This document shows, one piece after another, positions 2 through 39,499 of a stretch of DNA of 64,000 nt. A program made the translations under genes and the position numbers. The notes under the pieces are model-generated. The model was given only the letters and a program-made list of their open reading frames with translations. It was not told the origin of the DNA and searched no databases. The DNA comes from Flavobacteriales bacterium. Its GTDB lineage: Bacteria > Bacteroidota > Bacteroidia > Flavobacteriales_F > PHOS-HE28. Numbering within the stretch: position 1 is the stretch's first letter; each line of letters opens with the position of its first letter. The stretch is from contig JAMLHB010000003.1 in the NCBI GenBank assembly GCA_023957375.1, forward strand, positions 317,830 through 381,829. The letters run 5' to 3'.

Positions 2-9
2 TAATTTGG
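2..9 (+). promoter_or_regulatory. weak -7-like box before YD-repeat gene
   Basis: The sequence TAATTTGG resembles the Bacteroidota -7 element TAnnTTTG with one mismatch. It ends exactly 5 nt before the ATG at 15. The same 5-nt spacing is seen at better boxes in this window. The -33 region is outside the window, so this is only suggestive. Confidence 0.3.
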
Positions 10-14
10 CAATG

Positions 15-1103
15 ATGCAGATCGTTCAACGCGGCCTCTTCCCATTCGCCTTTTGTTCAGTGGTACTGTCATGGCAACCCATTTCCGCACTGGCCCAATC
101 AGAGAGACAGCCTAGCTATATCCATGTTTTGGATGAACTGATCCGATCTGAGCATGGGGTATTCCTGACAAACCCTGACACTCTTTTCAAGGATCACCCA
201 CGAACCGTGACGATGCAAGCAATCAACAAGTATGCATCAATTGGGCAGGACGAGTTGAGCAACTGGCGTGAATGGCCCGATAGCCTTTTTCAACCTCAGG
301 AAGGCTATACGCTGGCCTTCGATAACATGGGGCGGCTGATAGGGGCGACGGAACCAAACATCATGTTGTCCTATTCAATCACATACGGCCAATGGGGGAT
401 TGACCAGGTCGTTGAGCCCAATACCGGCATAAAGCGTGTTTATGCATACGGACGGAATGGACATTTGATCACGGTAGAGGAGATCCGGAATGGGTTCATC
501 ACGGGTCGGACGGCACTCACCTATTCCGCAGACCGCCTTGTCCAAGTCCTGTGTACGAGGGCAATCGGCCCGGACACGGCTTCTTGGCAGTTCACCTATG
601 ACGCTACCGGCAACCTTGTTCGGGAAGAGCAGGATCAACCTCTATTGCGCCTCTCAACATCTGTTTATCGGCCAGGCAAGGGTCGTGATAGCACGGTTCA
701 CATTGCCCACATTGCCGAGGAAGTCAAAAGAGACGTCTATGTTGAAGAACGCCACGCGGACAGGACAACGACCGAACAGCGGTATTACAACGGTGAGCTC
801 AATAGCACGACGAAGCGACAGGGTAACCAAGTGCTGCAAATCATCAGCACAGGATGGGACGAGACCTACGCATATAACAAGGATGGGCATTTGATAAGCG
901 TTTTGCGGAAGCCAATTCCCATCAGGCTCATAAATGGGACGTTGATAAAAGCAGGCTCCCGTGCACGTAACGACACATTTCAATACACATTTGATGAGCA
1001 CGGCAACCCTCTCCGAATTATTGCCACCAGCACCGAAACTGATGCCGGTTATACCTACACGAATTTCGAGGGCGCCTGGAGGTTCGAGTACACCTACTGG
1101 TAG
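15..1103 (+). CDS. secreted YD-repeat (RHS-like) protein
   Basis: A 362-residue protein if started at ATG 15; ATG 12 and TTG 6 are in frame alternatives. ATG 15 is preferred because of its spacing from the -7-like box. Residues 1 to about 27 look like a signal peptide ending in SALAQ. The body contains degenerate YD/RHS-type repeats such as YDATGNLVREE, YNKDGHLISV and FDEHGNPLRI, which form beta-strand shells in larger RHS proteins. There is no toxin domain, T9SS sorting domain or RHS core, so it is a small wall-like repeat protein of unknown role. Its base composition is visibly more AT-rich than the flanking genes, a hint of transfer. It is followed at once by an orphan fragment resembling a GDP-L-fucose synthase 3' end. 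Confidence 0.7.
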   Translation: MQIVQRGLFPFAFCSVVLSWQPISALAQSERQPSYIHVLDELIRSEHGVFLTNPDTLFKDHPRTVTMQAINKYASIGQDELSNWREWPDSLFQPQEGYTLAFDNMGRLIGATEPNIMLSYSITYGQWGIDQVVEPNTGIKRVYAYGRNGHLITVEEIRNGFITGRTALTYSADRLVQVLCTRAIGPDTASWQFTYDATGNLVREEQDQPLLRLSTSVYRPGKGRDSTVHIAHIAEEVKRDVYVEERHADRTTTEQRYYNGELNSTTKRQGNQVLQIISTGWDETYAYNKDGHLISVLRKPIPIRLINGTLIKAGSRARNDTFQYTFDEHGNPLRIIATSTETDAGYTYTNFEGAWRFEYTYW

Positions 1104-1110
1104 TTGATGA

Positions 1111-1206
1111 AGAAGAGACCCGAGCTGGAAGCACAGCATCGAACTGCGCGACGGGATTGCGCAGGTGTACGAGGTCTTCAAAAAGTACGAGGGGGAGAAG
1201 GTGTGA
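1111..1206 (+). pseudogene. orphan 3'-end fragment resembling GDP-L-fucose synthase
   Basis: The frame from 1111 to the TGA at 1204-1206 reads RRDPSWKHSIELRDGIAQVY followed by EVFKKYEGEKV. The WKHSIELRDGI...VYEVFKKY pattern matches what is known of the C-terminus of GDP-L-fucose synthase (Fcl/WcaG family), where a GW-x-H/P-x-I-x-L-x-x-GI-x-x-x-Y-x-W/F motif ends the protein. There is no upstream coding sequence: the frame is closed by TGA at 1108, just after the YD-repeat gene stop. An intact gene of this family just left of the window is predicted but not seen. The family call rests on about 25 residues. Confidence 0.5.
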
Positions 1207-1444: not shown

Positions 1445-3544
1445 ATGGATCGCAAGGCGTTCAATTTGCTGCTTTCCGTACTGTTGCCTCTTCTGATATC
1501 TCCGACCTACGCCGGCGCGAAGGAGGTGTGCTTAGGTGGCGTCACCGTCGAGCTTAAGCATGCGGACGGGACATTGGAGTTGTTGAACTGGGGGTGGTAC
1601 CAAACTGTAGAATTGTATGATACATCGATCACCTTGTCCCCCGGGGAGAGCATACGACTTTCAGGGGAGCGTTGGTCCAGCTGTTCGGGCCCCGCAAATT
1701 TGGACGTTCACTTTGCCGCGTTAGGGGACACTGCGAATTGGACCTCTCCCGAGATCGGCGTAGGTGCATCCACTGTAGAGCTCGATCAACCGGGTTCCTA
1801 TTATGCTTTACCGTCAAATGTGGATTTCGGGTTTGGGGCCCGGATCTTCATTGCGGCCCCGCCCCATCCATGCTTGGTGGGGCTTGCCTTCACCCTGCCA
1901 TACCCTCATAACCAGCTGGTGATCGTTCCTCCTGGTGACACGTGCATGGCACCATGCGTTACGGCCTATTTGCAACCAGGCCAGTCGGTGCAGTTACGGC
2001 CCACCTGCGGCGGCCTGGTTCCCCCAGGCGGACATGCCGTGGTCCGTTATGCCCCCGAGGGGGATACCGTGACGTTCGATACGCCTGCCACGCTAATCCC
2101 CTTAGACGAGGGTGGGAGCTATGCGTTCTCTGCGGATGGCTCGTACTTGCTGTCCGTGGAGGATTCAACGTTCTTCACGCCCGCCTACGCCTTTGCCAGG
2201 GTAAGCCACTTGCCCTTCCCGCGCGTGGACATGTCCTTGACCATTGAACGCCTTGATGGTTCCACGGAAGAATTCGCCTATATAAACCCGGATCATGTAC
2301 CTCATCTCAACGTGGCACTGGACTCCGGTGAAGTTCTACGGGCTGAGTACCATGAAATCACCGAACCGTGCGGATCCGTGCGATTGCAGGTGAACCGCAG
2401 TGATGACTGGTCACCAGCGGGCTGGTGGGATACGCTCCTGGTGGACAGCCTGAATCCTGATGCGGGCATCGCCATTGCTGAACCAGGCAGCTATTTTCTG
2501 GCGGAAGTAACGGAGTGCGGGGTCCAAGCAGCACAAGCCCGCGTAACCATCAATGCACCTGATCCGCAACTGGACCTGGTGGTCAGCCTTCGGCACGGCG
2601 ACGGAACGGAAACCGAACTTTTCCGCACCCATGCCTTAGTGTTCCCGCCACCGCACTTGGAGGCCAATTTGGGGCCTGGAGATTCCGTGCGGGTGCATGT
2701 TGAACTCATCCAAGGTTGGTGCTCCATGCCCTTGTTCCAATTGCGGAAAAGTCAAGGCGCCGGCGAAGCAAGCCATTTGGACCCGCTCTCCAGCTACAAT
2801 GGTTACTCTGCATTCCGTGACTTGACCTTTCGCAATGGCGGCAGGCATCTCATTGAATTGAACCAGGCCTTTCAGGATGCCTGCTTTGAAGACCAGGATG
2901 TTTTCCTGGATGTAAACGTGTTCACAGGCCCTCCACCACCCGTGCACATCCTCTTTTCCGTTACCAGGGTGCCGGAATTTGGCCCATTGGAACCGGTGGT
3001 CATGGCCACATCAGCCACCCCGCCCACGGTGGTACAAGTGGAATTGGCAACCCTTGATTCCCTGAAGGTCATCCCCACGTTCCAAGGCGGCTATTGCACC
3101 GGGACCGTCCTCAAGGGTTACCGGTCTGGAGGCGACACGGCAACCACCTTGGACCCCCTGTTCCTGGATGCCCCAATGGTGGATTCCGGTGTGCTTTTCC
3201 ACGCAACCGGCATCCTGCTCCTCACTGTGGAGGACACCTGCGGCGCCATTTCGGCCCAAGCCTTGCTCCATGCCTCGGAAGCGCTCTCCGCAGGCGTTTC
3301 CGGGGGAGGGCAAGCCGGTGCGCAATTCCAATATGCCGATCAACTGCTGCGCGTACATGCTGAACACGGCGGCCTGTTGGTGGTCCGGAACACCATTGGC
3401 CAAGTGCTCCAGCAAGTTGAACTGGACGCAGGTGCCGGGCCCGTCCATGTCCCCGTTCGGCCGGATGCACGCGGCTTGTACATTGCCACGCTGCGCGGCC
3501 CGGCCGGCCTGCAGGTCTTCCGGTTTGTGATGCAGCAACCTTGA
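1445..3544 (+). CDS. secreted protein with T9SS-type C-terminal domain
   Basis: A 699-residue exported protein of unknown function. Residues 1 to about 24 form a signal peptide (LLSVLLPLLISPTYA). The body is cysteine-containing and beta-rich, with repeated approximately 110-residue segments bearing motifs such as SGESIRL/PGDSVRV and GSY-F/L-xVE. The last ~75 residues (LLRVHAEHGGLLVVRN, then GLYIATLRG and FRFVMQQP) fit a type A T9SS sorting domain with the terminal beta-hairpin. It would cross the outer membrane through the gliding/Por secretion machinery and be anchored or released. It has its own -7 box and seems monocistronic. No enzymatic motif was recognised. Confidence 0.75.
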   Translation: MDRKAFNLLLSVLLPLLISPTYAGAKEVCLGGVTVELKHADGTLELLNWGWYQTVELYDTSITLSPGESIRLSGERWSSCSGPANLDVHFAALGDTANWTSPEIGVGASTVELDQPGSYYALPSNVDFGFGARIFIAAPPHPCLVGLAFTLPYPHNQLVIVPPGDTCMAPCVTAYLQPGQSVQLRPTCGGLVPPGGHAVVRYAPEGDTVTFDTPATLIPLDEGGSYAFSADGSYLLSVEDSTFFTPAYAFARVSHLPFPRVDMSLTIERLDGSTEEFAYINPDHVPHLNVALDSGEVLRAEYHEITEPCGSVRLQVNRSDDWSPAGWWDTLLVDSLNPDAGIAIAEPGSYFLAEVTECGVQAAQARVTINAPDPQLDLVVSLRHGDGTETELFRTHALVFPPPHLEANLGPGDSVRVHVELIQGWCSMPLFQLRKSQGAGEASHLDPLSSYNGYSAFRDLTFRNGGRHLIELNQAFQDACFEDQDVFLDVNVFTGPPPPVHILFSVTRVPEFGPLEPVVMATSATPPTVVQVELATLDSLKVIPTFQGGYCTGTVLKGYRSGGDTATTLDPLFLDAPMVDSGVLFHATGILLLTVEDTCGAISAQALLHASEALSAGVSGGGQAGAQFQYADQLLRVHAEHGGLLVVRNTIGQVLQQVELDAGAGPVHVPVRPDARGLYIATLRGPAGLQVFRFVMQQP

Positions 3545-3620: not shown

Positions 3621-5201
3621 ATGCCGTTCCATTGTCCCCGCATATTGGTCGTTGCGGCTTGGTTGCTGTGCCTGAAAGGCGCCGTGGCCCAGCAAAACGA
3701 CGTCCCGCTGAACCGCGACATCTATTACGGCATCGACCGCAACGGAGCCCGTGACAGTACCATGCACACGGGCATGCGGCCCATGATCGAAAGCCGTGCG
3801 GACCTGCACGGGGTCATGGGCTTCAGCCCCGACAGCGGCCGGTACTATTACTGGATCACCGAGAAGCTGTTCAAAGAGCACCTGATCCAGGTGAAGGACG
3901 GCGGTTTCAAACTCTCCGTGGACCCCATTTTCCGTTTTGAACTGGGCCGCGAACTGCATCAGGGGCCGAATTACAGGGACCATGTCAACCTGCAGCAGAA
4001 CAGCCGTGGGTTCCGCATCGCGGCGGACCTGGGCCCCACGGTGTCGTTCCAGAGCATGTTCATGGAGAACCAGGCCACCTACGCTCCCTACCTGTACTAC
4101 TATGCCCAGGCACACGGGGTGGTGCCGGGTCAAGGGCGCATCAAGGTCTTCAACGACATGGGGCTCGACTTTGCCTGGGCCACGGGCAATGTGAGCTGGA
4201 CCCCGCGGCCGTGGATCAATGCCCAACTGGGGCAAGGCCGGCATTTCGTGGGCAACGGCTACCGTTCCACGCTGCTGAGCGACAATGCCATGCCCTATCC
4301 GTACGTGAAGCTCAGTGCGCTCACCAACAACAAACGCTTCCAGTACACGGCCATTTTTGCCAAGCTGCAACAGGTGGGCGATGCAAACCGCCTGCCCACC
4401 GGCGATGCGGGCGAGTCGCTCTTCTGGTGGAAACGGGCCACCTTCCTGCACCTGAGCGCAAACCTGGGCCCGTTGCAGCTGGCCCTGTTCGAGGGCACGA
4501 TGTGGAAGACGATCGGACCGGACGGCGTGCTGGCCTTCAACCCGATGCAGATGAACCCCGTGATCGGATTGAACACTGCCGCGAACGGCTTCGGCGGCGA
4601 CAACACACAGCTGCTCGGGCTGGACGCGAAATGCCGCATCAATAACGAGGCCGTCCTTTACGGGCAATACGCGCTTACCGATCCCGGGCGCGGCCGCTAC
4701 GCCTGGCAAGTGGGCCTACAATGGTTCGACCTATTCCGGAAGGACATCCACCTGCTGGCGGAATTCAACCAGGCCACGCCATACGCCTACACGAAGAAAG
4801 ACCCCCGCATGAGCTGGACCCACAACAACCAACCATTGGCTTCGCCGGTGGGCACTGGGTACAGCGAAGTGGTGATCCTGGCGGACTATCGCCTGAAGGA
4901 CCGCTTCTGGTTCCAGGGTGAACTCAGCTGGCTGCACCATCCGGAGGGGCCCAACGCCAGCGGTGTGCCCGGCGGGGACATCTTTGCGGCCACCGGCAGC
5001 GGTGACCCGCCCAGGGACTGGGACTACAAACGGCTGTATGCGGGAGTGAACGCCTCGTACCGGATGAACCCCAAGACCAACATGCAGTTCACCTTGGGCT
5101 ATTCCATGCGCGACCTAACACCTGCTTCGGTGGGCCAGGACAGCGGCTGGCTGTACATCGCCTTCCATACCGGCCTGTTCAACCGCTACTACGATATTTG
5201 A
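3621..5201 (+). CDS. Wzi/RemB-like outer-membrane beta-barrel protein (copy 1)
   Basis: A 526-residue protein with a signal peptide (about residues 1-23, ending VAQQN). Its amphipathic beta-strand-rich body is typical of an outer-membrane barrel. The motif GQGRHFVGNGYRSTLLSDNA followed by YPYVKL is shared in modified form with the gene at 6332 (GKGRNSIGEGYRSMFLSDEA, YPYLRI). It resembles Bacteroidota proteins annotated as capsule-assembly Wzi family or gliding protein RemB. The two paralogues bracket a WecA-type transferase, which suggests a role in surface-polysaccharide attachment. The stop is 12 nt before wecA, so they are probably co-transcribed. The family name is moderately secure; the precise role is inferred. 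Confidence 0.7.
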   Translation: MPFHCPRILVVAAWLLCLKGAVAQQNDVPLNRDIYYGIDRNGARDSTMHTGMRPMIESRADLHGVMGFSPDSGRYYYWITEKLFKEHLIQVKDGGFKLSVDPIFRFELGRELHQGPNYRDHVNLQQNSRGFRIAADLGPTVSFQSMFMENQATYAPYLYYYAQAHGVVPGQGRIKVFNDMGLDFAWATGNVSWTPRPWINAQLGQGRHFVGNGYRSTLLSDNAMPYPYVKLSALTNNKRFQYTAIFAKLQQVGDANRLPTGDAGESLFWWKRATFLHLSANLGPLQLALFEGTMWKTIGPDGVLAFNPMQMNPVIGLNTAANGFGGDNTQLLGLDAKCRINNEAVLYGQYALTDPGRGRYAWQVGLQWFDLFRKDIHLLAEFNQATPYAYTKKDPRMSWTHNNQPLASPVGTGYSEVVILADYRLKDRFWFQGELSWLHHPEGPNASGVPGGDIFAATGSGDPPRDWDYKRLYAGVNASYRMNPKTNMQFTLGYSMRDLTPASVGQDSGWLYIAFHTGLFNRYYDI

Positions 5202-32408: not shown

Positions 32409-33548
32409 ATGGCCATTGAAAGCGCAACCCCTGAACTGGAAAAAGTAGTTCCCGAAGCACAGGATTTCCTCCCCCTGCTCGGCACCGACTACATCGAATT
32501 CTACGTGGGCAATGCCAAGCAAGCGGCCCACTTCTACAAGACGGCCTTCGGCTTCCAGAGCATGGCCTACGCGGGCCTGGAGACCGGTGTGAAGGACCGT
32601 ACCAGCTACGTGATCGAGCAGGACAAGATCCGCCTGGTGCTCACCACGCCGCTCACGCAGGACCATCCCATCAACGACCACCTGCGCAAGCACGGCGACG
32701 GCGTGAAGGTGATCGCCTTGTGGGTGGACGATGCCACCAAGGCCTGGCAGGAAACCACCAAGCGCGGGGCCAAGAGCTACCTGAAACCCACCGTGGAGAA
32801 GGACGGCGACGGCGAAGTGGTGAAGAGCGGCATCCACATCTACGGCGACACGGTACACCTGTTCATCGAGCGCAAGAACTACAAGGGCACCTTCCTGCCG
32901 GGCTTCAAGCCGTGGAAGAGCACTTACAACCCCACGCCCACCGGCCTGAAATACGTGGACCACATGGTGGGCAACGTGGGCTGGAACGAGATGAACCCCT
33001 GGGTGAAGTTCTACGAGGACGTGATGGGCTTCGCCAACGTGCTGGGCTTCGACGACAAGGACATCAGCACGGAGTACAGCGCCTTGATGAGCAAGGTGAT
33101 GAGCAACGGCAACGGCCGCATCAAGTTCCCCATCAACGAGCCCGCCGAGGGCAAGAAGAAGAGCCAAGTGGAGGAATACCTGGACTTCTACAACGGTCCG
33201 GGCGTGCAGCACATCGCCGTGGCCACGGACAACATCGTGAAGACCGTGCGTGACCTGATGAGCCGCGGCGTGGAGTTCCTCAAGGTGCCCAGCACCTACT
33301 ACGAGGGCCTGCTGGACCGCGTAGGCCCCATCGAGGAAGACCTGGCACCCTTGGCCGAACTGGGCATCCTGGTGGACCGCGACGATGAGGGCTACCTGCT
33401 GCAGCTCTTCACCAAGCCGGTGGAGGACCGCCCCACGCTCTTCTTCGAGATCATCCAGCGCAAGGGTGCCAAGAGCTTCGGCAAGGGGAACTTCAAGGCG
33501 CTGTTCGAGGCGATCGAGCGGGAGCAGGAAAGCCGGGGGACGCTTTAG
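32409..33548 (+). CDS. hppD: 4-hydroxyphenylpyruvate dioxygenase
   Basis: A 379-residue Fe(II) dioxygenase that converts 4-hydroxyphenylpyruvate to homogentisate, the step before HmgA. It has two vicinal-oxygen-chelate domains. The iron ligands are in VDHMVGNV (His), [10 protein letters not shown] (His) and [12 protein letters not shown] (Glu). The C-terminal helix is intact: [20 protein letters not shown]. The frame is open to 32217, but [13 protein letters not shown] at 32409 fits. A GACCTTTG -7-like box lies at 32370-32377. The last ~130 bp are repeated, in frameshifted form, 1.5 kb downstream beyond a Fic gene. Confidence 0.95.
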
Positions 33549-33801: not shown

Positions 33802-34914
33802 ATGGATACCTCCAAAGCGGTCCAATACCACTACGACGGATTTCCACCTCAGCAGATCGATTACGAGGTGCTATTGAATCCGCTGCTCCGGGCGGCGGAT
33901 GCGCTGGCCCGATATGACCAGATGCTCAAGGGGCTGCACAATAGCGAACTGCTTCTGGCGCCATTACGGAACCAGGAAGCGGTATTCTCCTCCCGGATGG
34001 AAGGCACCATCAGCACCATGGACGAGATCCTGCAATACGATGCAGACAGCATTGGTGAAGAGTACGTGCCCGGAATGAGGTCGGATGTGTTGGAGACCAT
34101 CCTCTATCGCCGCACATTGATCACGGCACAGGAAGAACTGCAGGAAGGGCGTCCATTCAGCCCGCATCTGATCCAAAGGATGCACCAACAACTGCTCTCC
34201 ATTGGACGCGGTGCCGACAAGGCCCCAGGGCAGTTCAAGGCAGAGCAGAACTACCTGGCCGACAAGCCGAAGCAGCAGATCCTCTTCGTGCCGATCGCAC
34301 CGGAACACCTACGCGGCGGCTTGGAGCGATTGTTCGAATACATGAACGCGGACACACATCCCCCCTTATTACGGGCCGGTGTAATGCACCTCGAATTTGA
34401 GGCGCTGCACCCTTTCAAGGATGGGAACGGACGGATCGGGCGGATGCTCATCACCTTGCACATGTGGCGCATGGGTTTGATCAGCGCCCCGCATTTCTAC
34501 ATGTCCGGTTACTTCGATGAGCACAAGGACGAATACATCGACACCATGCGCGAGGTATCACGGTCCGGGCGATGGGAGGCCTGGTGCGGCTTCTTTTTCC
34601 GTGCCGTAGAGGACAGAGCATTGAAGAATATCGCCACTGCCGAACGGATCAAGACCTTGTACGAGGACATGAAGGTCCACTTCACCGATGCGCTGGGATC
34701 CAAGAGGAGTGTCATGGCGCTCGACCATGTCTTCACAAATCCTGTGTTCAGAAGCAGTCAGTTCCTGAAGAAAAGCGGTATTCCGCCAGCAAGTGCCCGC
34801 CGCTTCATCCGTGTGTTGGCCGAGCGGCAACTGATCAAAACCCTTGCACCGGGCTCAGGCCGTCGGGCGACACTGTACTCCTTCGAGCCATTGATGAAGC
34901 TGGTACGGATCTGA
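33802..34914 (+). CDS. Fic family protein (class II, self-inhibited type)
   Basis: A 370-residue Fic protein, of a family that transfers AMP (or related groups) from nucleotides to hydroxyls of target proteins. The full active-site motif HPFKDGNGRIGR is at residues 203-214, so catalysis should be possible. An inhibitory-helix motif (S/T)xxxE(G/N) is seen N-terminally as SSRMEG (Ser63, Glu67), which defines class II. A Fic_N domain precedes the core, and a winged-helix-like C-terminus follows (ASARRFIRVLAERQLIK). It has its own promoter and lower GC than neighbours. It lies between two copies of the hppD 3' end, so it looks inserted. The target is unknown. Confidence 0.92.
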   Translation: MDTSKAVQYHYDGFPPQQIDYEVLLNPLLRAADALARYDQMLKGLHNSELLLAPLRNQEAVFSSRMEGTISTMDEILQYDADSIGEEYVPGMRSDVLETILYRRTLITAQEELQEGRPFSPHLIQRMHQQLLSIGRGADKAPGQFKAEQNYLADKPKQQILFVPIAPEHLRGGLERLFEYMNADTHPPLLRAGVMHLEFEALHPFKDGNGRIGRMLITLHMWRMGLISAPHFYMSGYFDEHKDEYIDTMREVSRSGRWEAWCGFFFRAVEDRALKNIATAERIKTLYEDMKVHFTDALGSKRSVMALDHVFTNPVFRSSQFLKKSGIPPASARRFIRVLAERQLIKTLAPGSGRRATLYSFEPLMKLVRI

Positions 34915-34929
34915 AGCACGGCGCACGAG

Positions 34930-35141
34930 GTGCCTGTACAGGACCGCCCCACGCTCTTGTTCGAGACCATCCAGCGCAAGGGCGCTGCAGCGCTTCGGCA
35001 AAGGCAACTTCAAGGCGCTGTTCGAGGCGATCGTCCCGTTGTACAGCGGGAGGGAGCAGGAAAGCCGGGGGGACGTTGTGACCCCTGCCTATTGAGCTTC
35101 AGGGAAAGGGCGTCCAGCGGGATGCCCTTTCGCCATTGAAT
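34930..35141 (+). pseudogene. orphan, frameshifted copy B of the hppD 3' end
   Basis: The sequence from about 34930 repeats the end of hppD: DRPTLLFETIQRKGA is read in one frame, then [13 protein letters not shown] in the next after a 1-nt insertion, followed by a short extra block and REQESRG. The trailer hairpin is repeated too. There is no start or upstream part of hppD here, so it cannot encode a working enzyme. It marks the distal edge of the Fic insertion. The intact copy A is at 33417-33605. Confidence 0.85.
35104..35131 (+). terminator. terminator hairpin after orphan hppD end
   Basis: GAAAGGGC (35104-35111) and GCCCTTTC (35124-35131) form a perfect 8-bp stem with a 12-nt loop and a short T run. 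It corresponds to the weaker hairpin at 33571-33593 and probably was the original hppD terminator. Confidence 0.6.
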
Positions 35142-35758: not shown

Positions 35759-35985
35759 TCACCCTTTCTCCACCACCTCCCCCGCTTTCCGCATGCCGGC
35801 CTTGCGCGCCTTGCGGATCCTGCAGGTCACCACCTTGTACTCCGGGCATAGTGCCTCATTGTCGTGGATGTCGCTGGTGATGGTATTGAGCATCACTTCA
35901 GGGAAGTGGAAGGTATTGCTGAGGATGCCGGGCTTTACTTCATCGGCAACGCGCGCCTGGATGTCCACCGTGCCGGGCCTTCGGT
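35759..35985 (-). pseudogene. orphan copy B of the formate dehydrogenase alpha 3' end
   Basis: On the minus strand this encodes VDIQARVADEVKPGILSNTF and onward to EVVEKG and a TGA stop at 35761-35759. Of the last 69 residues 62 match the end of the formate dehydrogenase at 36635-39499. The frame is intact over the copied part, but there is no upstream gene body: homology fades near 35985, just after the antitoxin stop at 36003. It therefore looks like the displaced original end, or a duplicate, left behind when the toxin-antitoxin pair inserted. Confidence 0.9.
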
Positions 35986-36002: not shown

Positions 36003-36188
36003 TTATGCGGCCTTCTTGTCTCCTGCCTTCAAGCTCGCTTCCAGCAACTTCGCCCACTTGGCCTTTATACGCTTGAATTCTGCCGGATCGAAGTCCGGGT
36101 CATGCCGCTCGCGATACATGGCCTCGCGGATCTCACGCACCATTTTCACGGCATCGTAACCTTTCTTGGGTCTGGTCGTGGTGTTCAT
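36003..36188 (-). CDS. putative antitoxin of a PIN toxin (second gene of pair)
   Basis: A 61-residue basic/acidic protein (MNTTTRPKKGYDAVKMVREI, REAMYRERHDPDFDPAEFKR). It is not closely recognised, but its size, helical charge pattern and 4-nt overlap (ATGA) with the PIN gene mark it as the likely antitoxin. The order is unusual: toxin first, antitoxin second. There is no separate promoter visible. It is followed within about 20 nt by the orphan formate dehydrogenase end. Confidence 0.6.
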   Translation of the reverse strand: MNTTTRPKKGYDAVKMVREIREAMYRERHDPDFDPAEFKRIKAKWAKLLEASLKAGDKKAA

Positions 36189-36631
36189 GTGATAAGGTCT
36201 CTAGGGCTGCGAATCTCCAGCATCCTGTAGCCGAGCTTCAAATTTACGGCGTTGTACAGCCGAATGCGGTTGTAGTTCACAATGTGCTTGAAGTTCCAAC
36301 TCACCAGCAGGTCCACCTGTGCGATGGTGGCGATGGCGATGTGCTGGGTGTCCAATTCGGATTTCTTGGTGACAATGCGTTCCTTGATATACGCGGCGGC
36401 GAGCGCTTCGGCATCCGGGGAGAGGCGCATCACATCAAGGTGCTTGGACTTCAGTTCCTTCAGCAATTGGCGCACACGCTCCGGCGCTACAGAGAGTTCA
36501 GCTTCACTGATATCGGAAATGACCGCCCGGTGCAGACCGGCCCTGATCTGATCGAAGAGCCCCACTGACCATTCCTCGAACTCCTTATCGAAGCAGCCAC
36601 CGAAGACCGAGGTATCGATGTAAATCCTCAT
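36185..36631 (-). CDS. PIN-domain putative toxin
   Basis: A 148-residue PIN-fold protein, a presumed ribonuclease. It starts MRIYIDTSVFGGCFDKEFEE (first Asp). Further acidic positions are in SDISEAELSVAPERVR (Glu), KSELDTQHIAIATIAQVDLL (Asp) and LVSWNFKHIVNYNRI (the SWN/NFKH signature of this PIN subgroup). ATG 36631 lies 3 nt after the formate dehydrogenase stop; a TTG at 36634 is in frame. It has no obvious promoter of its own, so it is probably translated from the formate dehydrogenase mRNA. It precedes, rather than follows, its presumed antitoxin. Confidence 0.85.
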   Translation of the reverse strand: MRIYIDTSVFGGCFDKEFEEWSVGLFDQIRAGLHRAVISDISEAELSVAPERVRQLLKELKSKHLDVMRLSPDAEALAAAYIKERIVTKKSELDTQHIAIATIAQVDLLVSWNFKHIVNYNRIRLYNAVNLKLGYRMLEIRSPRDLIT

Positions 36632-36634
36632 CAA

Positions 36635-36863
36635 CTATGCCTTCACCACCACCTCCCCCGCCTTCCGCATCTGTCCCTTCCGTGCCTTGCGGATCCTGCA
36701 CGTCACCACCTTGTACTCCGGGCATAGTGCCTCACTGTCGTGGATGTCGCTGGTGATGGTATTGAGCATCACTTCAGGGAAGTGGAAGGTACTGCTGAGG
36801 ATGCCGGGCTTCACCTCGTCGGTGACGCGCGCCTGGATGTCCACCTTGCCGCGCGGGCTTTCC
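36635..36863 (-). repeat. direct repeat copy A: formate dehydrogenase alpha 3' end
   Basis: The last ~228 bp of the intact gene match 35759-35985 at roughly 90% identity. One block of more than 50 nt spanning 36735-36790 is identical. The repeats are in the same direction and flank the PIN pair. Confidence 0.88.
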
Positions 36864-39499
36864 ACGCAGACCATGTCGCCATCGGCGATGCCGTGCTGCT
36901 GCGCGTCGGCGGGGTTGATCATCAGCAGGTCCGAGGTCAGGATCACTTCGTTGCCGGTGCGGCGCGTCATGGTGCCGCTGTTGTAGTGCTCCAGCTCGCG
37001 GTTGGTGGTGATGATGAACGGGTAGTCCTTGCCGTGGGCCTCCACTTCCGGGCTTTCCACCCATGGCTTGAAGATGAAGCGGCCCTTGCCGCGTTTGAAG
37101 GTTTCCGTGTGCAGGATCTTGGTGTCACTGCCGTCGGCCTTCACGGGCCATTGCTTTCCGTTCTCGCCAAGATCCTCCCACTTCACCCCGGCGAAGAAAG
37201 GCACGATGCGGCTGATCTCTTCCAATACCCAGTCCGGATGGTACGTGGTGCTGGCGTTGCCGCTGCGGGTGCCGGTGCGCTTGGCGTAGCGTTCCATCAC
37301 ATCGCAGACGATCTGGCCATCCGACCTTGTGCCTTCCAACGGCGGCACCACTTCGTTCACGCGTTGGATGCGGCGTTCGCCATTGGTGAAGGTGCCGTTC
37401 TTCTCCAGGAAGCTGGCCGCGGGCAGGATCACGTCGGCATACTTGGCCGTATTGGTCATGAAGATCTCCTGCACCACCAGCAGTTCGAGGCTTTCCATGG
37501 CCTTCATCACCTTTTGGGTGTTGGGGTCGGTCTGCACCACGTCCTCACCCATCAGCCACAGGGCCTTCAGTTCACCGTTGATGGCCGCATTGAACATCTC
37601 GGGGATCTTCCAGCCGATGCGCGTGGGCATGGGCACGCCGTAGTGCGCCTCGTACTGCTTGTTCACCGCGCTGCTGGTGAGGTCCAGGTAGCCCGCGCCT
37701 TGGTGGGGCTGTGCGCCCATGTCGGCGGCGCCCTGCACGTTGTTCTGTCCGCGCAACGGGTTTACCCCCGTGCCGCGCCTTCCTACGTGGCCGGTCATCA
37801 TGGCCAGGTCGGCGATCTGCATCACGGCGAAGGTGCCTTGGTAGTGCTCGGTGACGCCTAAGCCGTGGAAGCTCATGGCCGCAGGGGCCTTGGCGTAGGC
37901 GATGGCGGCTTGGCGCACCAGTTCGCGGTCCACGCCGGTCTCGCGTTCCATGGCGGCCATGTCCACGCCGAGCACTTCCTTCCTGAAATCCTCCCAGCCC
38001 TCGGTGCGGGTGTCGATGAACTCCTGCTTCACCAGCCCTTCGTGGATGATGTAGTACAACATCATGTTCAGCAGGGCCACGTTGGTGCCAGGCCGCAACT
38101 GCAGGTGGAAGTGGGCGTAACGGGCCAGCTCGGTGCGGCGCGGATCGATCACGATCAGCGTCTTGCCCTTCATCACGTGCTGCTTGATCTTGGCGCCGGT
38201 AACGGGGTGCGCGTCGCTGGGGTTCGCACCGATCACCAGGATGGCGTGCGTGTCGTTCAGGTCGTCGATGCTGTTGGTGGCCGCGCCGGTGCCGAAGGTC
38301 TCCTGCATGCCGAGCGCCGTTGGGCTGTGGCACACGCGCGCGCAGCAGTCAATGTTGTTGGTGCCCACCAGCGCCCGCATGAACTTTTGCATGAGGTAGT
38401 TCTCCTCATTGGGGCAGCGCGCGCTGCTGATGCCGGCGATGGCATCGGGGCCGTGCGCGTCGCGGATGGCGATGAGCCGGTCCAGCATGAAGTCGTAGGC
38501 CTCGTCCCAGGTGGCGGGTTGCAGCTCCCCGTTCCTGCGGATCAGCGGGGTGCGCAGGCGGTCGGGGTGGTTGTAGAATTTGAAGGCGTAGCGGCCCTTC
38601 AGGCAGGTGTGGCCCTGGTTGGCCTCCGCATCATAAGGCGCGGTGATACCCGCCACGGTGCCGTCCTTCACCTTCACGTCCAGGTTGCAGCCCACGCCGC
38701 AGTAGGTGCAGGTGGTGCGCACCACCTCGTCGGCCACGGTTTCCTTGGCGCGGAACACGTCGGTAATGGCGCTGGTGGGACAGGCCTGCGCACAGGCGCC
38801 GCAGCTCACGCAGTCGCTGTCGAAGAAGCTTTCATCGGTGCCCTTCACCACCACGTTGCCAAATCCACGTCCTGCCATGGTGAGCACCATTTCGCCCTGC
38901 ACTTCGTCGCAGGCACGGATGCAGCGGTAGCAGCCGATGCACGCGCTGAGGTCGCTCACCATGTAAGGGTGGCTGGTGTCCATCGGCGTGTCCAAGTGGT
39001 TCCAGCCCTTGGGGTAGCGCACCGCATCCACGTCCACGCCGAGGCGCTTCACCACATTGTAGAGCTCGTTCTTGCCGTGATCCTCGGTCTTCAGGCGCTC
39101 GGTGTCGTAGTCGGTGAGCACCAGCTCCACGATGTTCTTGCGCAGCCGCTCCATGCGCGGGCTGTTGGTGGTGATGTACATGCCATTGCCGATGGGGCTG
39201 TGGCAGCTGGCCATCACCTTCTTGGGGCCATCTTCCTTGAGCGCCACTTCCACCGAACACACGCGGCAACTGCCGAAGGGCTCCAGGTTGGGCGCATCGC
39301 ACAGCGTGGGCACAGGGTCGGGACCTTTGTGGCGGCGCATGAAGGCGAGCATGGTCTCGCCCTGGATGATCGGGAAGGCCTTTCCGTCGATGAAGGCAGT
39401 GCCCGCGTCGGTGGCGGCCTTGTTGGCGCTGGAGGGCGCGCTGGCTGTGCGCGCGGCCGGTGTAGCGGGCGATCCGTGCTTGGCTTGCGGCGTATTCAT
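36635..39499 (-). CDS. fdhA: molybdenum/tungsten formate dehydrogenase, alpha subunit (NAD-linked type)
   Basis: A 954-residue catalytic subunit that interconverts formate and CO2. In order: a Pro/Ala-rich N-terminus; a 2Fe-2S domain (CDAPNLEPFGSCRVC); a His-Cys-ligated cluster region; two 4Fe-4S sites (CIGCYRCIRACDE, CVSCGACAQACP); the 4Fe-4S site CTYCGVGCNLDV; and the bis-MGD catalytic domain with CCARVCHSPTALG. Cys390 takes the selenocysteine position and His391 is the catalytic histidine. The molydopterin-binding C-terminal domain ends in RKAGEVVVKA. The NuoG-like N-terminus and its partner gene indicate a soluble NAD(P)-dependent complex. Its 3' end is directly followed by a PIN toxin gene, and its last ~70 codons are duplicated beyond that. 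Confidence 0.95.
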   Translation of the reverse strand: MNTPQAKHGSPATPAARTASAPSSANKAATDAGTAFIDGKAFPIIQGETMLAFMRRHKGPDPVPTLCDAPNLEPFGSCRVCSVEVALKEDGPKKVMASCHSPIGNGMYITTNSPRMERLRKNIVELVLTDYDTERLKTEDHGKNELYNVVKRLGVDVDAVRYPKGWNHLDTPMDTSHPYMVSDLSACIGCYRCIRACDEVQGEMVLTMAGRGFGNVVVKGTDESFFDSDCVSCGACAQACPTSAITDVFRAKETVADEVVRTTCTYCGVGCNLDVKVKDGTVAGITAPYDAEANQGHTCLKGRYAFKFYNHPDRLRTPLIRRNGELQPATWDEAYDFMLDRLIAIRDAHGPDAIAGISSARCPNEENYLMQKFMRALVGTNNIDCCARVCHSPTALGMQETFGTGAATNSIDDLNDTHAILVIGANPSDAHPVTGAKIKQHVMKGKTLIVIDPRRTELARYAHFHLQLRPGTNVALLNMMLYYIIHEGLVKQEFIDTRTEGWEDFRKEVLGVDMAAMERETGVDRELVRQAAIAYAKAPAAMSFHGLGVTEHYQGTFAVMQIADLAMMTGHVGRRGTGVNPLRGQNNVQGAADMGAQPHQGAGYLDLTSSAVNKQYEAHYGVPMPTRIGWKIPEMFNAAINGELKALWLMGEDVVQTDPNTQKVMKAMESLELLVVQEIFMTNTAKYADVILPAASFLEKNGTFTNGERRIQRVNEVVPPLEGTRSDGQIVCDVMERYAKRTGTRSGNASTTYHPDWVLEEISRIVPFFAGVKWEDLGENGKQWPVKADGSDTKILHTETFKRGKGRFIFKPWVESPEVEAHGKDYPFIITTNRELEHYNSGTMTRRTGNEVILTSDLLMINPADAQQHGIADGDMVCVESPRGKVDIQARVTDEVKPGILSSTFHFPEVMLNTITSDIHDSEALCPEYKVVTCRIRKARKGQMRKAGEVVVKA

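Follow-up and report, generated by a model that had tools for sequence, protein, structure and literature searches.

In E. coli, the icd gene at which prophage e14 lies is intact but closes with an imported 3' end, and its native ending is displaced downstream as the orphan icdC. The prophage brings an integrase gene with it and relies on a single core site. The gene-end arrays described here resemble e14/icd in having an imported ending on an intact gene and the native end downstream, but their cassettes carry no integrase. Integron gene cassettes are similar in another respect, as they are tandem small cargo modules which include toxin-antitoxin (TA) pairs and are each followed by a repeat. 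However, the repeat in our arrays is a protein-coding gene end specific to each target gene. At the fcl, hppD and fdhA sites the repeats between cassettes are coding gene ends, and no adjacent intI-type integrase was found.

C-terminal displacement in rhs genes also leaves an intact gene with a series of older 3' fragments behind it, displaced and variable in length, and homologous recombination with circular intermediates was proposed for rhs tips (Jackson et al., 2009; PMC2935791). The arrays share this layout. However, an rhs ending is a variable, selected toxin tip, whereas here the ending is that of a conserved housekeeping gene and the novelty is the cargo behind it. In Vibrio cholerae, T6SS effector-immunity arrays show sequential insertion, a one-sided homologous anchor and older material shifted downstream, and homology-facilitated illegitimate recombination was proposed for the immunity arrays (Kirchberger et al., 2017; PMC5361080). 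These features would be shared as well, although the Vibrio arrays are limited to T6SS loci and immunity genes, while the docking points here are many unrelated metabolic genes. An intact gene followed by older 3' fragments was found at fcl, mccB, hppD, fdhA, and hsdS, and we would class the arrays as a variant of known displacement arrays that affects housekeeping genes.

The window is a stretch of 64,000 nucleotides (G000:C3:317830-381829) from a Flavobacteriales genome (G000) of 3.83 Mb in four contigs. At its left edge, the frame at 1111-1206 translates as RRDPSWKHSIELRDGIAQVYEVFKKYEGEKV followed by a stop codon (features are listed in Table 1). The first-pass annotation had read this piece as the C-terminus of GDP-L-fucose synthase (fcl) without an upstream body. 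A whole-genome search bore this out: window 1124-1206 matches the 3' end of an intact fcl gene (C3:316150-316232) with 84% identity over 83 nt (E 8.5e-19), and it is 88% identical to another orphan fcl end. The intact gene had been predicted to lie directly to the left, in the same direction and with nearly the same ending. Strand and ending were as expected; the gene is not adjacent, however, as its stop codon lies 1,598 bp left of window position 1, with one orphan end and two TA modules in between. The annotation had also envisaged a single orphan following the YD-repeat gene. That orphan is real, but it is one of two in tandem, and the insert nearer to it also holds a HepT/MntA pair. The order of the array is fcl, small protein and PIN toxin, orphan end, HepT/MntA pair, YD-repeat gene, and the orphan end in the window. 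All fcl end copies in G000 share their right border, which is the fcl stop codon, and their left borders vary. The YD-repeat gene is, as first described, a lower-GC secreted repeat gene, with a GC content of 51% compared to about 62% across much of the window and a start that resembles a signal peptide. The nearest named relatives of this fcl belong to Flavobacteriales MAGs, and the isolate name of one MAG suggests an origin in activated sludge.

Table 1. Features of the gene-end arrays and integrase genes in G000. Coordinates are those of the window unless a contig is given.
Feature	Coordinates	Strand	Remarks
Intact fcl (GDP-L-fucose synthase)	C3:315294-316232	+	Epimerase family PF01370, E 1e-66
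Small protein + PIN-domain toxin	C3:316293-316939		PIN_2, E 6e-27
Orphan fcl 3' end (first orphan)	C3:316945-317043
HepT/MntA-type pair	C3:317053-317674	-	HepT-like, E 5e-28; NTP_transf_2, E 2e-12
YD-repeat secreted-protein gene (cargo)	12-1103	+	363 aa; one YD/RHS repeat; RHS_repeat, E 8e-6
Orphan fcl 3' end (second orphan, third copy in array)	1124-1206	+	Ends at stop codon; no start codon or upstream body
Secreted 699-aa protein gene	1445-3544	+	No Pfam match
Native right-hand neighbor of fcl	3621-5201	+	51-182 nt after fcl in relatives with empty site
Intact hppD 3' end (gene 32409-33548)	33416-33548	+	Parent of orphan copy
Fic/DOC-family gene (cargo)	33802-34914	+	Pfam
Orphan hppD 3' end	34932-35081	+	Decayed by indels
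Orphan fdhA 3' end	35759-35978	-	Frame still open
Small protein overlapping PIN gene (cargo)	36003-36188	-	Putative antitoxin; no Pfam match
PIN-domain (VapC-like) toxin (cargo)	36185-36634	-	Pfam
Intact 3' end of fdhA-like formate dehydrogenase alpha gene (gene 36635-39499)	36642-36854	-
Integron-like integrase, XerA/IntI group	C1:126953-128290
Second copy, same integrase type	C2:310309-313040		Interrupted by IS66-like element
Third integrase copy	C3:167107-167421		Truncated

Comparison with relatives revealed what the fcl site looks like without cargo. In 11 of 20 other genomic loci, fcl is separated by only 51-182 nt from the counterpart of the gene at window 3621, which we take to resemble a Wzi-type capsule assembly protein; in G000 the distance is 5,218 nt. 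Because the site is empty in most of the relatives checked, the DNA between fcl and its native neighbor in G000 is, on this sequence comparison, inserted. The secreted-protein gene at window 1445-3544 is missing between fcl and its usual neighbor in the relatives examined, and it is therefore probably further inserted DNA; no orphan fcl end was found after it. The gap behind fcl measures 1.3-3.1 kb in four relatives (G002, G012, G022, and G016). In G002, fcl is followed by a HepT/MntA pair and then one fcl end copy. G032 carries three end copies after fcl, and the cargo that separates them consists of a DUF433-containing pair, a HepT/MntA pair, and a cytosine methylase along with its neighbor. 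Of the six orphan borders at fcl, four are clustered within about 4 nt (-81 to -84). A search of 77 fcl loci with enough downstream DNA, taken from across the Bacteroidota and nearly all from other genera, found no orphan fcl ends.

The case at fcl had been proposed by analogy with hppD and fdhA further into the window, and both of these were found to have matching orphan ends. The hppD end (33416-33548) is 81% identical to its orphan (34932-35071), and the fdhA end (36642-36854) is 91% identical to its own (35766-35978). The borders of the fdhA repeats vary. No clear end-replacement breakpoint was found in either hppD or fdhA.

The 3' end of an mccB-like carboxylase gene is a hotspot throughout the genus. 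At least one orphan end was found in 15 of 18 loci with an intact end, and several loci have more than one. The orphan borders range from -29 to -203, with several near -69 and a second cluster near -171, which may merely reflect poor alignability beyond that point. Further features were observed within these arrays. Y1_Tnp transposase genes (IS200-like/REP-associated type) are present in those of G005 and G027, and a REP-like palindrome, TCCCGCCTTAGCGGGA, immediately precedes the orphan mccB ends in G009, G025, and G002. A small antitoxin gene lies beside an orphan end in G022, G012, and one of several arrays in G010; it is called RelB/ParD-like because it resembles the antitoxins that accompany ParE toxins in G005 and G025, and no recognizable toxin gene adjoins it.

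About ten more genes with the same arrangement were found in sampled stretches. In G000 the further targets are hisS, a lyase gene (with a 5'-end duplication), hsdS (three copies), a VTT/DedA-like gene, a LytTR regulator, an epimerase (with a PIN-like gene), and an SRPBCC gene, several of them named by eye from the sequence. In several relatives, hisS and the lyase gene are direct or near neighbors. The density of targets is uneven, with about 8 genes in 534 kb of arbitrarily chosen stretches of G000 compared to 1 in 573 kb of G009, G024, and G002 together. Of two more distant genomes, the first had one or more comparable repeats in 191 kb and the second none in 126 kb. Confinement to this genus was rejected, as the control genome G054 carries at least one similar gene-end repeat; the process therefore extends beyond the genus. 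Mobility specific to TA modules was rejected as well, since restriction-modification systems, Fic genes, secreted proteins, an IS, and an integron island have the same flanks. Repeat borders differ between target genes and some are at gene 5' ends. At G000:C1:170473-171376, a HepT/MntA-type pair lies between 47-nt repeats of the 5' start of a gene, not its 3' end.

We consider it likely that the orphans are former native ends, displaced by horizontally acquired DNA which carried a related gene end together with cargo. The comparisons demonstrate that DNA was inserted, that the arrays are tandem and recur in the genus, and that lineages have exchanged endings; from this we infer a mechanism that would include RecA-type homologous anchoring and incoming DNA in either circular or linear form. 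DNA of a related species would arrive with its own version of the 3' end of a gene, followed by cargo (a TA pair, Fic, restriction-modification, or secreted-protein gene), and would recombine at the recipient's gene end via that homology. The incoming ending would complete the rebuilt gene, and the old one would be moved downstream along with anything already behind it. Repeated events would produce tandem arrays of cargo and endings, as at fcl. Such recombination within the gene end is the simplest way to account for a rebuilt gene, added cargo, and an old end further downstream. It could be of Campbell type, with one crossover between the gene and a circular molecule that carries cargo and a partial gene end. 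Alternatively, a homologous crossover on one side could be combined with illegitimate joining on the other. In an E. coli selection for one-sided events, mostly partial gene-end duplications of 109-950 bp were obtained, and these were explained by one crossover with a shortened circle (PMC3240628). G000 is predicted to encode a ComEC-like competence protein. A search of the genome for a Ku gene gave no match; Ku-dependent joining was therefore rejected, and end joining would need another route.

Displacement by random joining is at odds with the clustering of borders at fcl (-81 to -84 in the four of six) and near -69 at mccB; microhomology, a break hotspot, or a recombinase could account for it. 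The same repeated use of particular nucleotides speaks for site-specific integration, in which gene ends would serve one or more tyrosine recombinases, perhaps supplied in trans, as attachment sites for non-autonomous cassettes that bring a replacement end, much as icd serves e14. Candidate enzymes are present: the genome encodes an XerA/IntI-group integrase and also contains an IS-broken copy and a remnant of it, two of these three lie in islands bounded by gene-end repeats, and XerC and XerD are also encoded. However, no core sequence common to the different genes was found, and no recombinase or integrase was found in the window cassettes, which hold only TA, Fic, or YD genes; for these two reasons site-specific recombination is retained only as a rival. 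The absence of an integrase from TA cassettes and the spread of borders, from -29 to -203 in mccB and variable in fdhA, also weigh against it, and we regard it as unlikely. The borders at fcl, hppD, fdhA, and the 5' end of the lyase gene had hinted at a Chi-like or GTGGA core, which failed by eye when more borders were included. One of the islands (G000:C1:125470-128290) is integron-like: the XerA/IntI-type integrase is followed by low-GC genes, the whole lies between copies of a 97-nt gene-end repeat, and attC-like sequences ending in GTTAGC or GTTGAGC were seen by eye only. In a stronger form, which we hold to be distinctly improbable, a dedicated gene-end-targeting system would exist in this genus, with a recombinase of relaxed specificity (possibly the resident XerA/IntI-like enzyme in trans) inserting small defense cassettes at conserved gene ends. 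The spare ending of each cassette would repair the target gene, in an integron-like manner with housekeeping gene ends as attachment sites.

Local duplication would require no foreign ending. A mobile-element insertion would have duplicated the gene end in place, in the manner of an exceptionally long target-site duplication, or a tandem duplicate would have lost its body, and the orphan would then have drifted. Some orphans, such as that of G005, are indeed nearest to the end of their own gene, and in a tree of mccB ends the G005 orphan, and weakly that of G000, groups with its own gene. The hppD orphan, decayed by indels and without a breakpoint in the gene, would also fit. However, many orphans are nearer to the ends of other species. 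Displacement is also favored by the 210 differences between intact and orphan copies, of which 118 affect third codon positions (p about 1e-11 compared to one third), a bias that could nevertheless partly come from evolution of the intact gene after local duplication. The evidence at mccB is stronger. There, the identity of orphans to another species' native end compared to their own is 82% versus 69% in G010, 90% versus 79% in G002, 93% versus 80% in G007, and 90% versus 80% in G015. The G027 orphan is also nearer to native ends of other species than to its own, and in the tree a supported clade holds both orphans of G010 while the end of the G010 gene lies elsewhere. The nearest neighbors of the mccB gene body and gene end disagree, and synonymous divergence at the end is far above that of the body, with third-position identity of 79-91% over most of the body (70% in one bin) and 50-79% over most of the last ~200 nt. 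Intact and orphan copies are 75-97% identical and of variable length. At fcl, G000 and its nearest relative G031 are 95.5% identical over the 200 nt before the border and 85.5% over the last 83 nt (9 of 200 versus 12 of 83 mismatches, Fisher p 0.006). The native fcl end of G031 is matched at 76 and 75 of 83 positions by the two G000 orphans, compared to 71 of 83 by the intact G000 end. Because mccB orphans match other species, synonymous identity drops at the mccB end, and fcl identity drops at the border, the sequences indicate that the copies are more than simple local duplications and that endings are exchanged between lineages, most clearly at mccB and more weakly at fcl. We therefore give local duplication very little credence. 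Chance similarity or an assembly artefact has practically no weight, given the E value of 8.5e-19 within the genome and an architecture that is repeated at many genes and in G032 and G002, which are independent genomes.

If displacement by incoming endings is correct, ordinary metabolic genes would be recurrent docking points for TA, restriction-modification, and secreted-protein genes which come without their own integrase, and species would exchange the final few dozen codons of the docking genes in the process. Gene trees or annotations built on such ends would mislead. Orphan gene ends would in turn provide a simple sequence marker for acquired defense genes.
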